Source of the DNA: Chloroflexota bacterium
GTDB lineage: Bacteria; Chloroflexota; Dehalococcoidia; Bin125
Reading direction: 5' to 3'
DNA: 64,000 nucleotides
NCBI GenBank assembly: GCA_009838915.1
Contig: VXQT01000027.1
Span: 62,001-126,000, forward strand
Every line of letters begins with the position of its first letter. The stretch's first letter is position 1. Below, in pieces: positions 19,480 through 34,980 of the stretch. A program made the translations under genes and the position numbers. The notes beneath the pieces are model-generated. The model saw nothing but the letters and a program-made list of their open reading frames with translations. It ran no database searches and was not told the DNA's origin.

Positions 19480-20840
19480 GAGTCCGCCAGCCTCTCGACA
19501 ACCCGCTCGAGGTGCATCGCATGGGACGCCTTGACCAGCAGTGTGTCGGTGCGTTCCAGAGAGCTGCGCAGAATCTGCGTTGCCTGCTCGGCGTCTTCGA
19601 CCCAGCAGGCGCGCTGGTGTCCCGCCTCGCGCGCGGCGTCGACGATGAACCGAGAGCGTGGGCCAACCGCGATCAGCCAGTCGCAGCACTCGGCGGCGAA
19701 TCGCCCGACCTCGTGGTGAGCTTGCTGTTCTTCAGTGCCTAACTCGTACATGTCGCCGAGCAGGGCGACCCGGCGCGGCCGGCAGTCGCGCAGGAGGTCG
19801 AGCGCCGCTCGCATCGAGAGCGGCGCCGCGTTGTAAGAGTCGTCGATGATCGCGGCGCCGTTCCAGGCGGTTCGCTGCATGAGACGCGATCCGGGAGACA
19901 GGGCGCAGAGCGCGTCGTCAATCTGAGCCAGCTCCAGACCCGCTCGCAGACCCACAGCGGCCGCTGCCAGCGCAGTCATCGCCTGGTGGACGCCGGGGAG
20001 CGGCGTGAAGGTGCGCTGTTCCTGGCCGCCGAGTCGATCGACAATCGTGAACTCGACGCCGTCGAATCCACGCGCCTCGACGTCGGTTGCACGCAGATCG
20101 CAGTCCTCGCCGAGTCCGAACGTGATCGTCTCGGCGCGGGTGCGAGTTGACATCCGGCGGACACGAGGGTCGTCGCCGTTGAGGATGGCCAGGCCACCCG
20201 GCGGAAGCGACTCCGGCAGCAGGCCCTTGATCCGTTCGGTTTCATTCAGCGTGCCGAAACGCTCGAGGTGGGTCGGCCCGACGTTGGTGACAATGGCAAT
20301 GTCTGCCTGGGCGGACGAGACCAGTAGCTCCATCTCCGCCTGCGAGTAGGGACCAATCTCGATGACGGCCCACTCGTGCGAGCGATCGATGCCAAGCAGG
20401 GCGATCGGCATACCGATGTCGCCGTTAAAGTTCCGCGGCGACTGGTATGTGGCAGTGTGCCTGGAGAGCAACTGATAGGTCGCTTCGCGGACTGTTGTCT
20501 TGCCCACGCTTCCGGTGATTCCGACGACCTGAGCGTCGACACGCGCACGCCAGTTTCGCCCGGCTTGCTGCAGGGCCGTGAGCGGATCATCAACCACGAA
20601 CAGATGCGGGCCGCCCAGCCCGGATGCCGCCGAGACCAACGCGGCCGAAGCTCCACGCGCGAGTGCGTCGTCGACAAATCGGTGTCCATCCATGCGTTCG
20701 CCGCGCAACGCGACAAACAGACTTCCTGGAACCGCCTCGCGGGAGTCGATCACGATCTCTGAGAACGGCGCGTCATCCACCTGCGGTCGCTCAAGCAACA
20801 GCGATTGGATCAGCTCGCCGAGATCGCTCGAGGAGATCAC
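19476..20840 (-). CDS. murF: UDP-MurNAc-tripeptide--D-alanyl-D-alanine ligase
   Basis: IDSREAVPGSLFVALRGERMDGHRFVDDALARGA, ITGSVGKTTVREATYQLL, NFNGDIGMPIALL, IDDSYNAAPLSMRAAL. Confidence 0.93.
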   Translation of the reverse strand: MISSSDLGELIQSLLLERPQVDDAPFSEIVIDSREAVPGSLFVALRGERMDGHRFVDDALARGASAALVSAASGLGGPHLFVVDDPLTALQQAGRNWRARVDAQVVGITGSVGKTTVREATYQLLSRHTATYQSPRNFNGDIGMPIALLGIDRSHEWAVIEIGPYSQAEMELLVSSAQADIAIVTNVGPTHLERFGTLNETERIKGLLPESLPPGGLAILNGDDPRVRRMSTRTRAETITFGLGEDCDLRATDVEARGFDGVEFTIVDRLGGQEQRTFTPLPGVHQAMTALAAAAVGLRAGLELAQIDDALCALSPGSRLMQRTAWNGAAIIDDSYNAAPLSMRAALDLLRDCRPRRVALLGDMYELGTEEQQAHHEVGRFAAECCDWLIAVGPRSRFIVDAAREAGHQRACWVEDAEQATQILRSSLERTDTLLVKASHAMHLERVVERLADS

Positions 20841-22747
20841 TCGACATCCTCCTGCGCAGTGTCGGGATCGGACTCATCCTCGATGTATGTGACCGGCGAT
20901 TCCTGTTCCTCCACCTCGACGGAGGCTGTCAGCGCGTCCCCGCGTTCCTGTTCATCAACGGCCGATTCGATTGAGCCGGTGGGACCGGTGTTCCACGAGG
21001 TTGGATCGGCGATGTAAGCGGTTGGCGGCACGCCGAGGTAGGGCAGCACCACGGTCATCAAGTCAGAGAAGATCGGGGCGGCCACGATGCCGCCAAAGAG
21101 TTCGCCCTGGGGACGATCGATACGAATCAGCACGACAACACGAGGATCGTCGGCCGGCGCGAACCCGGCGAACGACGCGATCGACTCGTCTTCGATGTAG
21201 ACCCCGTCTTCGACCAGATCGGACGTCCCTGACTTGCCGGCGACCGGCCAACCCTCGACCTGAGCGGGATGCCCCAGCACCCCGTCGACAACCGCCTGCA
21301 TCATGCGAGTCAGCGTGGCCGCAGTCTCTCGGCTGATCGCGCGTTCTGCGACTCGCGGCTCGAACTGCTGGACGCCCTGGTCGGTGATGATCGCCGAGAC
21401 CAGTCGAGGCCGTATGGGGACTCCGCCGCGGGCGACGGTCGCGTATGCCTGGAGAATCTGCAACGGCGTCACGGCAATGCCCTGGCCGAAGGAGTTGGTC
21501 GCCAGCTGCGACGGCGACCAGCGGATGTCGGTCGAGTCCGTGACCACCCCACCGATTTCGCCGGGCAGGCCTGACTCCGTGCTGGCTCCGAATCCGAACC
21601 GGTATAGGTACTCGTAGAATTTGCGCGCGCCCAGTTGCTGGGCGACCCAGACGCTGCCCGTGTTCAGCGATCGCTGGAGCACCTGCGTCATCGTCTGTTC
21701 ACCGTGGTAGCTGAGGTCGAAGTTCTTGATCGTGCGATCTTCGATCACTACGGCGCCGGTGTCGATAAGTGTGGTCTCGGGCGAAACAATGCCTGTGTCA
21801 AGCGCCGCCGCCATTGTGACAATCTTCATCGTTGAACCGGGCTCGTAGATGTCCGACGCGGCACGGGATCTGAGCAGCGCGATGGACTCCGGCAGATCGA
21901 GGTCGATCGTCATCGGGTTGTAGGTGGGCAGGGATGCGAGCGCGAGAATGTCACCGTTGCGCGGATCCATCATGATGATGTGCCCACCGAACGCATCCCA
22001 CTCTTCGACCGCGCGTTGCAGGGTGGATTCGGCGATCCACTGCAGATTGCGGTCGATGGTCAGGACGATTGACGCGCCTTGTTGGTAGGGCAGTTCGGCT
22101 CGGGGGCCGAAGGGAATCGGGTTGCCGAGCCCATCGACTTCCTGGACAAGCAGGCCAGCCTCGCCGCCGAGCAGTTCGTCGAGTTGATACTCAAGGCCGG
22201 CCAGGCCCTGCTCGTCGCGACCGACCAGCCCGATCACCTGCGATGCCATTGAGCCTTCAACGTATCGGCGCGATGAAGTCTTGCGCACCTGAACACCGTG
22301 AAGCGCTTCGGCGTGAATCTGCGCGCCCAGCGCGCCCGAGAGTCCATAAGCGATCAGGGCGTCGTGCCCGCCTTGCGCCGCGGTTTGTGCGGCCAGCGAG
22401 AGCACGATCGATTCATCCGCGCGCAGCAGCTCGGCGAGACGCCGCGAGGCGTCGGTCGGCTGGAACTGTGATCGCGCCCAGAGCCGAGTGTCGACGTGCA
22501 CTTCCCAGGCGTCGATCGAGGTGGCGAGAGGGAATCCGTTGCGGTCGAGGATCGCGCCCCGAGGACCCTTAGTTTCAATCGCCCAAGTGCGATCCGCGTA
22601 GGTCTCGTGTGCTTCATGCTCGAGCACCTGGATCATGACCAGTCGCACCACGATGACGGCGGCCAGCGCAATGAAGAGCGCGATGATGGCGCGCATTCGC
22701 CAAGTCGAGACCGACTCGAAGCCGCTGCCCAAGGACGGACTCGCCAA
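20837..22747 (-). CDS. ftsI: Penicillin-binding protein 2 / FtsI-type transpeptidase
   Basis: YEPGSTMKIVTMAAALD (SxxK), QRSLNTGSVWVAQ (SxN), VAGKSGTSDLV (KSGT); N-terminal TM. Confidence 0.93.
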   Translation of the reverse strand: MASPSLGSGFESVSTWRMRAIIALFIALAAVIVVRLVMIQVLEHEAHETYADRTWAIETKGPRGAILDRNGFPLATSIDAWEVHVDTRLWARSQFQPTDASRRLAELLRADESIVLSLAAQTAAQGGHDALIAYGLSGALGAQIHAEALHGVQVRKTSSRRYVEGSMASQVIGLVGRDEQGLAGLEYQLDELLGGEAGLLVQEVDGLGNPIPFGPRAELPYQQGASIVLTIDRNLQWIAESTLQRAVEEWDAFGGHIIMMDPRNGDILALASLPTYNPMTIDLDLPESIALLRSRAASDIYEPGSTMKIVTMAAALDTGIVSPETTLIDTGAVVIEDRTIKNFDLSYHGEQTMTQVLQRSLNTGSVWVAQQLGARKFYEYLYRFGFGASTESGLPGEIGGVVTDSTDIRWSPSQLATNSFGQGIAVTPLQILQAYATVARGGVPIRPRLVSAIITDQGVQQFEPRVAERAISRETAATLTRMMQAVVDGVLGHPAQVEGWPVAGKSGTSDLVEDGVYIEDESIASFAGFAPADDPRVVVLIRIDRPQGELFGGIVAAPIFSDLMTVVLPYLGVPPTAYIADPTSWNTGPTGSIESAVDEQERGDALTASVEVEEQESPVTYIEDESDPDTAQEDVE

Positions 22748-22786: not shown

Positions 22787-23308
22787 CTAGTTGAAGACCA
22801 GCGCGTCGATCATCGTCTGCCAGACCGAGGTGTCGGTTTGCGAATGGTTGAAGTCGAGGTCAAGGCTGCCGGAGGTCGGCAAGAAGCGTGTTGGCATCGT
22901 TCGCGCAGGCGGCGGTTGACTCACATCCAGGACGATCGTGGGTCGGGCCGGCACCATGTTGAAGCGCTCGACCGCCTGCTGTTGGATTCGAGACAACGAA
23001 CCGAGCTGGCCGACGTGCGCGGCCAGCGATCGGATCTCCGAGTTCAGGCGCTCGCGTTCGGCTTCCAAGGCGCGTAACTCCGAACCGCTCTCAGTGACGC
23101 TGGATGTGCGCATCACCGGCAATACGGCCGCAATGCAGAGCCCGATCACGGCCAACCATGCCCAGGCCGGCATTCTGCCGGTGTAACGCGGTCGCCGTGG
23201 CAACACCGGCCGCGGCAGCGCGTGCCAGGCGTCGCTAGCTGCCGAAGTCGGCAGTGACGCGTCGAGCGTCGTGCTGGGCTTGGCAGTTGTCATTGAAACG
23301 CCGCTCAC
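22787..23308 (-). CDS. ftsL: FtsL/DivIC-like septum protein (single TM + coiled coil)
   Basis: TM segment AWLAVIGLCIAAVLPV followed by coiled coil SELRALEAERERLNSEIRSLAAHVGQL; position directly before ftsI. Start could be the internal Met at about 23293. Confidence 0.7.
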   Translation of the reverse strand: MSGVSMTTAKPSTTLDASLPTSAASDAWHALPRPVLPRRPRYTGRMPAWAWLAVIGLCIAAVLPVMRTSSVTESGSELRALEAERERLNSEIRSLAAHVGQLGSLSRIQQQAVERFNMVPARPTIVLDVSQPPPARTMPTRFLPTSGSLDLDFNHSQTDTSVWQTMIDALVFN

Positions 23309-23454
23309 CGACGAGAGGTTCCCGAGATCAAGCGGGCCCAGCTCGATGCCGCGGATCGTGCAGTCGATTCATTATGGAAAACGGGTGCGCCGCCAGGCGG
23401 TTGCCGTTGGCTGAACCTAGAGTGAGACGCATCCGCGAACGGCGGAGATCGGAA

Positions 23455-23629
23455 CGCTTGGCACTCGTTGAGCGGACCGTGCGCGCAGACAGGGGGACGT
23501 GGTCCACGTTCGTCATGACCGATGGTCACGCGCAACCGTGTTCCAGTGGTTTGGCGGCGGGGCTTCTCCTTCACTGTAGTGGCTGTTAGGTAGTCCCCTG
23601 CGCACGATCCGCTCAACGATTTCCAAGCG
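23455..23629 (-). ncRNA. Candidate structured RNA element, copy B of tandem pair
   Basis: 19-bp closing helix 23466-23484 / 23600-23618 (one + strand C-A, i.e. G-U on minus), ggggac/gtcccc helix (23493-98/23593-98), tgacc-gat-ggtca hairpin, outer helix cgcttgg/ccaagcg (23455-61/23623-29). Covaries with copy A. Confidence 0.6.
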
Positions 23630-23695
23630 CCCGGTCGGCGCTCGCGCTTCTCCTTTCTCGCAACGCCAGACGGTTCAACGGCCGGCAACCTGGGT

Positions 23696-23871
23696 GTTCG
23701 GACGACGTTGAGCGACCCGCGCGACATATCGGCGGGACGTGGTCCACGATTGCCGCGACCAACGGTCGCGGGCAACGGTGTTCCGGTGGTTTGGCGGCGG
23801 GGCGCCTCCCTTGTTCGTGTTTGGGCTGTTAGATCGTCCCAGACACGCGGGCCGCTCAACGGCATCCGAAC
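23696..23871 (-). ncRNA. Candidate structured RNA element, copy A of tandem pair (first transcribed in the operon direction)
   Basis: 18-bp closing helix 23706-23723 / 23844-23861 (two positions pair only on minus as G-U), gggac/gtccc helix (23734-38/23836-40), ttgccgcgacc-aac-ggtcgcgggcaa hairpin, outer helix gttcgga/tccgaac (23696-23702/23865-23871). Confidence 0.6.
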
Positions 23872-23921
23872 CGGTCTCTCTCCCTGGTTGACACTGAATG
23901 CTGCGGGCGAGGGCCGTGACA

Positions 23922-24818
23922 TCAGATCGCCTCCGCCGCCCGCATCCGCGCGCTCCTGGCGCGTGGATTGCGCTGAATCTCCTCTGCGGACGGGCGCAAG
24001 ACCCGCCGGGTCAGGGTGCGGAACGCCGGCGCGTCGCCGCTCGACTGTTCCTGCAGGAAGCCCTTCACGATCCGATCCTCGAGCGAGTGAAATGCGATCA
24101 CGACGAGTCGCCCGCCCAGTCGGAGGATGCCTCGCACCTGGGAGAGAAATGCCGCCAGACGCTCGAGCTCGCGATTAACCTCGAGGCGGATCGCCTGGAA
24201 GACGCGAGTAGCCGGATGGATACGCGCGCCGGGACGCGCGCCGACCGTGTCGACAACGGTCTGGGCGAGTTGCGTGGTTGATTCGATGGGACGCCGCTCG
24301 ACGATGCCTCGGGCGATCCGTCGCGAGCGGCGCTCCTCCCCGTACTCGAAGATCAGGTCGGCCAGATCGTCGACTGACCACTCGTTGACAATCTCCCGCG
24401 CCGTAACGGGAGCGCCCGTTTGGGGCCCCAACCGCATGTCCAGCGGACCCTCTGCCCGAAGCGAGAAGCCTCGCTCGGGCGTGTCGAGTTGCAGCGACGA
24501 CACGCCCAGATCGCAGAGGATGCCATCGAGCGGCGTCATCTGAACGTCGGCGGCGGCGGCGGCTGCGTCGTCGAGCCAGCATCTGGCCAGCGTCACGCGC
24601 GAAGCGAACGGCGCAAGGCGCTGTTTAGCGAAGTCAATCGCTTCGGGGTCGGCATCGAGACCTAGCAGACGGCCGTCGGGCGCGGAAGCGCTGAGTACGG
24701 CCTGGGCGTGGCCACCGAGGCCAACGGTCGCGTCGAGGTAACGGCCTCGCGGCTTCACGTCGAGCATGGTTAGCGCTTCGTCAAGCATGACCGGGGTGTG
24801 CGCGGCTGAGGAGGTCAT
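23922..24818 (-). CDS. rsmH: 16S rRNA (cytosine(1402)-N(4))-methyltransferase
   Basis: HTPVMLDEALTMLDVKPRGRYLDATVGLGGHA, DGILCDLGVSSLQLDTPERGFSLRAEGPLDMR. Confidence 0.96.
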   Translation of the reverse strand: MTSSAAHTPVMLDEALTMLDVKPRGRYLDATVGLGGHAQAVLSASAPDGRLLGLDADPEAIDFAKQRLAPFASRVTLARCWLDDAAAAAADVQMTPLDGILCDLGVSSLQLDTPERGFSLRAEGPLDMRLGPQTGAPVTAREIVNEWSVDDLADLIFEYGEERRSRRIARGIVERRPIESTTQLAQTVVDTVGARPGARIHPATRVFQAIRLEVNRELERLAAFLSQVRGILRLGGRLVVIAFHSLEDRIVKGFLQEQSSGDAPAFRTLTRRVLRPSAEEIQRNPRARSARMRAAEAI

Positions 24819-25294
24819 GAAGACTCCTCATCTCGCCCGTTCGCATCCACAGCGTCGAGCGTGGCCGCAAGGTCCTGAAGCAGCTGCGCGTAGGAGTCGT
24901 CGATCTCCGATTGCTCGGAGCGCCAGGCGTCGCTGTTCCAGATCTCCAGGTAATCGCCCATGCCAATGATCGTGGTGTCGCCGCTGAGACCGCGCTGTTC
25001 TCGCATCGGCTGCGGAATCACGATCCGTCCCTGGCGGTCAAGGTCGACCTGGCGCACGCGACCGAAGAAGCCTCGCGCCAAACGCCGATCTTCGGCTTTC
25101 AGCTTGTTGTTGGCGGTGCGCGTTCGCTTCTCCTGGGCGTAGCCCTCGGGCGTGTAGAGCTCGAGTTGTCCATCAGGGCCAGGCAGCAAGTATCCGCTGT
25201 GTTCAAAGAGCATCCGATAGGCAGCAGGAATCGCCAGACGACCACGGTCGTCAATACGGTGTTCGTACTCCCCTGTGAAATCGAGCGTTGCCAC
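24815..25294 (-). CDS. mraZ: Transcriptional regulator MraZ
   Basis: FTGEYEHRIDDRGRLAIPAAYR...DRQGRIVIPQPMREQRGL (two AbrB-like halves). The GTG start near 25294 is my estimate; the track ORF begins at 25345. Confidence 0.92.
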   Translation of the reverse strand: MATLDFTGEYEHRIDDRGRLAIPAAYRMLFEHSGYLLPGPDGQLELYTPEGYAQEKRTRTANNKLKAEDRRLARGFFGRVRQVDLDRQGRIVIPQPMREQRGLSGDTTIIGMGDYLEIWNSDAWRSEQSEIDDSYAQLLQDLAATLDAVDANGRDEESS

Positions 25295-25338
25295 CGGAGA
25301 AGCCCTCTGCGCGATTCGCACTCTCGTTATGACTGCCG

Positions 25339-25357
25339 AAACCACTTTTCCCCACTT
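25339..25357 (-). promoter_or_regulatory. Candidate MraZ box upstream of mraZ
   Basis: Minus strand AAGTGGGGAAAAGTGGTTT: TGGGG-n5-TGGTT direct repeat at 10-bp period, matching the known MraZ TGGGN-N5 repeat architecture. Confidence 0.45.
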
Positions 25358-34903: not shown

Positions 34904-34980
34904 GGCCCCGTGGTGTAGCGGCCTAACACGCCACCCTGTCAAGGTGGAGATCGGCGGTTCGAATCCGCTCGGGGTCGCCA
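34904..34980 (+). tRNA. tRNA-Asp (anticodon GTC), CCA encoded
   Basis: GGCCCCG...CCTGTCAAG...GGTTCGAATCC...CGGGGTC-G-CCA cloverleaf. Confidence 0.95.

Follow-up and report, generated by a model that had tools for sequence, protein, structure and literature searches.

A conserved structured RNA behind rsmH in a Chloroflexota dcw operon and its probable counterpart inside rsmH of related lineages

The rsmH-ftsL gap and its structured units

The window, by which we mean the whole 64,000-nt stretch analysed here, carries a dcw operon that lies on the minus strand throughout mraZ (24815-25345), rsmH (23922-24818), ftsL (22787-23308) and ftsI (20837-22747). The rsmH (mraW) gene encodes the 16S C1402 methyltransferase (PF01795, E 4.5e-97), and the dcw gene that follows it was assigned as ftsL by a match just under the cut-off (PF04999, E 2.4e-4). 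Between these two genes lie two palindromic units on the minus strand: c1, the ftsL-proximal copy, at 23466-23618 (153 nt, RNA 5′ end at 23618), and c2, the rsmH-proximal tandem copy, at 23706-23861 (156 nt). In line with the initial annotation, which had described two units of about 155 nt, they start 240 nt apart and share 75-77% identity; their palindromic arms of 30 and 26 nt are 90% and 88% complementary.

That annotation had folded the plus strand, which is the antisense, as rsmH, the gap and ftsL are all encoded on the minus strand. Its invariant block gtgttccAgtggtttggcggcggggc is indeed present on the plus strand, but represents the complement of the core aaggagaaGCCCCGCCGCCAAACCAC of the minus strand. 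In the sense orientation, G-U cells outnumber A-C cells 42:10 over all helices of the copies downstream of rsmH, and R1, a covariance model built from 19 sequences of downstream copies, scores c1 at 182.9 bits on the minus and 31.4 bits on the plus strand (c2, minus, 145.2 bits). This asymmetry and the model scores indicate that the functional RNA is the mRNA strand.

The fold is closed by helix P1, in which the 5′ arm CGTTGAGCGGATCGTGCG (23601-23618, minus in c1, as are all arms given here) pairs with the 3′ arm CGCACGGTCCGCTCAACG (23466-23483). Its 18 pairs are formed in 99.4% of cells, with double changes at 7 pairs, and an outer extension of c1 (CGCTTGG/CCAAGCG, span 23455-23629, arms at 23455-23461 and 23623-23629) shows CG/UA double changes and lengthens the helix to up to about 26 bp. 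Further inside follow P2 (GGGGAC/GTCCCC, 5′ arm 23593-23598, 3′ arm 23493-23498, 97.4% of cells paired), P3, whose CACG/CGTG arms are part of the consensus fold, and the hairpin P4 (CGTGACC-ATC-GGTCATG, 23514-23530), which has covarying pairs such as G-C/A-U in 9/6 sequences. The closing helix, the GAC/GTC helix and the internal hairpin are thus present as earlier described. The core AAGGAGAAGCCCCGCCGCCAAACC (23548-23571, minus) is near-invariant among c1 copies; its 20 nt AAGGAGAAGCCCCGCCGCCA are identical in a genome of another genus (G017), and CCCCGCC is common to downstream copies and to the copies embedded in rsmH that are described below. Among the 19 relatives' sequences of downstream copies, standard pairs make up 94.6% of pair cells, a fraction that drops to 26.6-44.5% on shifting the partner by 1-3 columns. 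At twelve pairs both sides have changed, a number that none of 500 shuffles reached, which bears out the covariation first seen between the two units. The dcw transcript carries two copies, c1 and c2, of one conserved structured RNA on its sense strand.

Rfam, searched at gathering and relaxed thresholds, returned no match for either unit, the mraW motif RF01746 included, and the relatives' elements had none at the gathering threshold; the earlier view that no known RNA class is involved therefore held. Judged by the open-access literature, the RNA in the Chloroflexota cell-division operon is apparently undescribed. The sole Rfam match in the window is a tRNA gene on the plus strand (34904-34977).

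The element is confined to one locus. The relatives' data are MAGs, and alignments were made by MAFFT. By blast, c1 was found in 13 of 15 genus genomes, each time between rsmH and ftsL, with 86-99% identity, whereas the RsmH proteins share 70-90%. R1 matches all 15 as well as G017, a member of a sister genus, always in the rsmH-ftsL gap, so that the predicted fixed position before ftsL was borne out; the most divergent members, G006 and G007, both outside the model, are among these matches (E 2.3e-9 and 1.1e-8). In G017, P1 is kept with different yet complementary arms (CGTGGGGCAGATCGTGCG/CGCACGGTCTGCCCCACG). The copy c1 has its ortholog genus-wide, and tandem second copies occur in six genomes (G000, G002, G003, G013, G014 and G017). 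A search of the window's own genome found c1 and c2 and no third copy. With only the rsmH-ftsL locus occupied, there and in relatives, a dispersed palindromic repeat was rejected, whether a MITE or REP, which the initial annotation had weighed, or an RPE. The exact core pattern, sought in 85,000 species, occurs in Dehalococcoidia/Chloroflexi and as scattered single matches in other phyla; those of the latter that were checked with R1 gave no convincing element. The core also appears in GenBank entries titled as Dehalococcoidia/Chloroflexi MAGs, many of which we read as sponge-derived from their isolate names. The host group appears to be marine and sponge-associated Chloroflexota.

Several smaller features accompany the units. 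The GGGG of P2 (GGGGAC, 23593-23598) could pair with GTCCCC or with the CCCC of the core, a possible two-fold switch. Between c1 and ftsL (23305-23466 in the window, minus) stands a box YCACTNTA (TANAGTG on the plus strand). Its distance from the last P1 arm is exactly 41 nt in 12 of 15 genus members, 20 nt in G014 and 29 nt in G006; the pattern had no match in G005, and the box is absent in G017. The hairpin that precedes it varies in sequence but by eye often still pairs, and the box may either belong to the RNA as an additional part or represent a −10-like site of the opposite strand. By eye, many genus members share a second short box near TTTCCGTAAC (23330-23400 in the window, minus), located about 85 nt beyond P1; a pattern caught few. 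Integron attC-like arms were rejected on inspection, the arm order being wrong. In a search of the operon mRNA for a pairing partner of the core, the longest perfect complement was 10 nt, a length expected by chance.

Contrary to its treatment as plain intergenic sequence, the gap holds a minus-strand frame of 205 codons (23305-23922), free of stops from the rsmH stop (TGATG) to the ftsL start, which overlaps the stop of the frame; both c2 and c1 lie within it, in the same phase. The frame is open in 16 of 16 genomes (126-249 codons), from an ATG in or at the rsmH stop to the ftsL start, with coupling sequences TGATG at rsmH (TAAATG in G017) and mostly ATGA at ftsL. All 22 element copies start in the same codon phase (phase 1), with leaders of 55-163 nt. 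After shuffling of the flanks, the chance of openness is 0.018-0.147 per genome, and the product over 8 divergent representatives is ~10^-9.6, a figure from which kinship is incompletely removed. The composition is not protein-like: GC by codon position is 0.63/0.67/0.63, against 0.74/0.51/0.78 in rsmH, and variable sites of c1 fall 19/15/13 over codon positions, so the codon-position tests do not point to a protein gene. A Pfam search of the frame gave no match, and the flanks of the elements hardly align between genomes. It appears that the frame is held open without constraint on its product. Within the core (23560-23571, minus), an in-frame Shine-Dalgarno-like AAGGAG stands one codon before CCC-C, the geometry of the prfB +1 frameshift (AAGGAG-NNN-CCC-C). 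Suggestive as this is, a frameshift was rejected, since a conserved product was found in neither shifted frame.

A helix inside rsmH of related lineages

In each of four sister-genus genomes that lack an rsmH-ftsL gap (G015, G016, G018 and G019), R1 matches inside rsmH at full length (30-35 bits). The embedded site spans the codons VEQAAG...HPATKT...ARGLLG. A direct helix search found long helices around HPAT, with scores of 14.9-28.5, in families f1, f2, f17, f22, f25, f31, f33, f50, f60 and f66; in all, 26 genomes from ten families of the same class (Dehalococcoidia) carry the helix inside the rsmH coding sequence. Over 23 helix genomes, 1380 synonymous-codon redraws attained the observed helix score once. 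In the window's rsmH, the HPAT segment has no helix and its score of 8.3 lies at the synonymous-codon null, as is the case in 16 of 16 genomes with the downstream element. The initial annotation had viewed the element as one of the gap before ftsL only; since a similar element lies within rsmH in sister genera and other families, rsmH has an equal claim with ftsL to be its partner gene in the wider clade.

The embedded P1 covaries, with 8 double-change pairs among 22 embedded copies (reached by 0 of 500 shuffles), and has a G-U to A-C ratio of 29:4 on the sense strand. Synonymous identity is raised at the 5′ arm (0.76 against an expected 0.48, ratio 1.57), at the 3′ arm (0.85 against an expected 0.40, ratio 2.10) and at the core codons (0.79 against an expected 0.48, ratio 1.64). 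Nowhere else in rsmH does synonymous constraint peak as strongly, whereas the same codons are unremarkable in helix-less genomes. RNA-level constraint thus acts inside rsmH. By single-sequence folding, the core is predicted to be unpaired in most embedded copies tested, and only partly so in the g1 copies.

R2, a model built from embedded copies only, recognises rsmH throughout most of the class, which is to be expected of a coding sequence. At least 109 bits were reached in 76 of 393 genomes, the directly verified helix genomes among them, and in a 301-genome sample of the phylum no genome outside the class passed E 1e-13. Where checked, a second R2 match in a genome was the same palindrome read from its opposite strand. 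In four rsmH genes from other families (L101, L107, L108 and L099), the embedded helix scores 22-28, where 16 is usual, despite differing flanking amino acids. One rsmH gene of family f2 (L111, genome G110) has no helix within this helix-bearing family, and other f2 genera are helix-less by R2; the RNA seems to have been lost at times in f2, and as the helix-less genera were followed only as far as G110, more losses are likely.

Proposed origin and function

The downstream and the embedded elements are probably homologous. What links them is the P1 arms, the short core, the length, the place and their mutual exclusivity: 13-14 of 18 positions of the P1 arms are identical (chance about 0.006), the core CCCCGCC(A/G)CC is found at much the same distance in both, the embedded copy measures 152 nt and the downstream copy 153 nt, and across genomes the downstream element and the rsmH helix exclude each other. 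R1 matches the embedded site and R2, conversely, picks up c1 and c2, with the palindrome contributing much of the R2 score. In a sliding comparison, most pairs placed the embedded site at rank 1 or 2 out of ~3740, and the lowest rank it took was 32. On a quick RsmH tree of 68 rows, three changes account for the distribution (one gain, one move or relocation and one loss), and the genomes with the downstream element form a clade of 16 with support 96.

It is well supported, if not proven, that the RNA would be ancestral to a Dehalococcoidia clade and originally lay inside the rsmH coding sequence, where the ancestral form would have had a closing helix around the HPAT codons and a loop exposing the C-rich core CACCCCGCCACC. 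In the ancestor of the window's genus and one sister genus, a copy would have been placed directly downstream of rsmH, after which the rsmH copy may have lost its helix. Released from coding for RsmH, the downstream copy would have retained P1 and the core and have been repeatedly duplicated, in frame; the gap is probably free of stops because ribosomes must travel from rsmH to ftsL. That P1 and the core were kept through a change of place and frame, and were duplicated, suggests a module able to work alone, in which the closed, helix-capped form may resist RNases. Our preferred reading, to which we give slightly less than even confidence, is of an autonomous RNA module in translated mRNA, relocated from rsmH and most likely excised as a small RNA of ~150-200 nt that would present the C-rich core in the manner of FtsO or a decRNA. 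Duplication and relocation would come more easily to a trans-acting or excised RNA than to an element tied to a fixed distance.

The strong conservation would also fit a cis-acting mRNA element. Here, the helix would mark a boundary for RNase III-type processing or for stability, or would throttle ribosomes, and so fix how much rsmH yields relative to ftsL and later genes, with nothing acting in trans. The long helix formed by P1 and its outer extension, the constant location inside rsmH or between rsmH and ftsL, and the TGATG and ATGA coupling and constant codon phase, which keep ribosomes moving through, all suit such an element. A mere barrier, however, would explain neither why the loop core is conserved and synonymously constrained nor why there are tandem copies, and the distance to ftsL was altered when the element moved; we hold this explanation possible but unlikely.

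More doubtful is an operator for autoregulation, with RsmH binding or methylating a core that resembles 16S rRNA around C1402. The element accompanies rsmH in every genome, inside or directly behind it, and by eye its core CACCCCGCC resembles 16S CACACCGCC. Yet in relatives the core codes for HPAT, a conserved motif, and this by itself accounts for much of its sequence; linear mimicry of rRNA was rejected as a candidate: the E. coli 16S is similar by eye, but in linear alignment the similarity to the genome's own 16S rRNA does not rise above shuffles.

The two forms might also have separate origins, c1 and c2 then being a genus-level cis-regulatory RNA for ftsL that is unrelated to the rsmH helix. 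Such independence would account for the inner regions, which by themselves show no significant similarity between downstream and embedded copies (fraction of shuffles as good 0.06-0.5), and for P2-P4, to which no consensus helix of the embedded copies corresponds. R2 scores the downstream units at 27.4 bits (c1) and 20.4 bits (c2), mostly from P1; because the antisense of c1 also scores 22.6 bits, much of this signal is the palindrome. The arm identity, the full-length R1 matches in four sister-genus rsmH genes, the ranking of the embedded site and the perfectly complementary distribution make separate origins improbable.

We consider a plus-strand antisense RNA driven by the TANAGTG box, 41 nt from P1, very unlikely: its distance is constant in most genus members, but G-U asymmetry and model scores favour the sense strand, the box is absent in G017, and no −35 was seen by eye in the few genomes inspected. 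That the gap frame simply encodes an ordinary protein containing a repeated domain, its RNA structure being incidental, is hardly credible, for although it is long and open in every genome, with coupled start and stop, its substitutions are spread over codon positions, its GC profile is flat, unlike its neighbours, Pfam has no match, its flanks hardly align and its pairs change in compensation.

Returning to a relocated, autonomous module, we see an even chance that it represents a new RNA family, which would have arisen inside a coding sequence of an essential operon, under dual protein and RNA selection in ten families or more. In a single lineage it would have left its gene by partial duplication and become a free, tandemly amplified RNA in a translated, protein-less frame, with both states present in living relatives. 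RNAs embedded in coding sequences are known, while their origin and their escape from coding constraint are hard to see. Sister lineages with the RNA inside and behind rsmH make RNA constraint separable from protein constraint by comparison. The Chloroflexota dcw operon also offers a case of a long open frame apparently maintained for translation rather than for its product.

Comparison with known systems

Rickettsia palindromic elements, palindromes of ~100-150 nt that lie in frame within translated ORFs, likewise carry a palindromic structure inside an open frame; they are dispersed over many genes, in contrast to the single locus per genome found here. Ribosomal-protein and rRNA-mimic autoregulatory leaders are RNA elements adjoining the gene of an rRNA-binding protein, as this element adjoins rsmH, but 16S mimicry is not significant here and the element does not lie in a 5′ leader. 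The mraW RNA motif of Actinomycetales (Rfam RF01746; PMC2864571) shares the association by name with mraW (rsmH) and the dcw cluster, whereas our element has no Rfam match and lies inside or behind rsmH, in Dehalococcoidia.

The closest likeness is to small RNAs from within dcw coding sequences. Four decRNAs of enterobacteria lie inside coding sequences of the dcw operon (PMC6156199), and for one of them, FtsO in E. coli ftsI, a role as a small-RNA sponge has been proven, along with raised conservation at wobble positions (PMC7815308). Like these, the present element is a structured RNA within dcw coding sequence, with stem-loops at both ends, an exposed conserved core and wobble-position conservation above the rest of the gene: it lies inside rsmH in the 26 helix-bearing genomes of ten families and in the stop-free gap frame in the window's genus, and synonymous conservation peaks at both arms and the core. 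It differs in its gene (rsmH), its phylum and its long-range covarying P1, in being known from sequence alone, and in its relocation out of the gene and its tandem copies.
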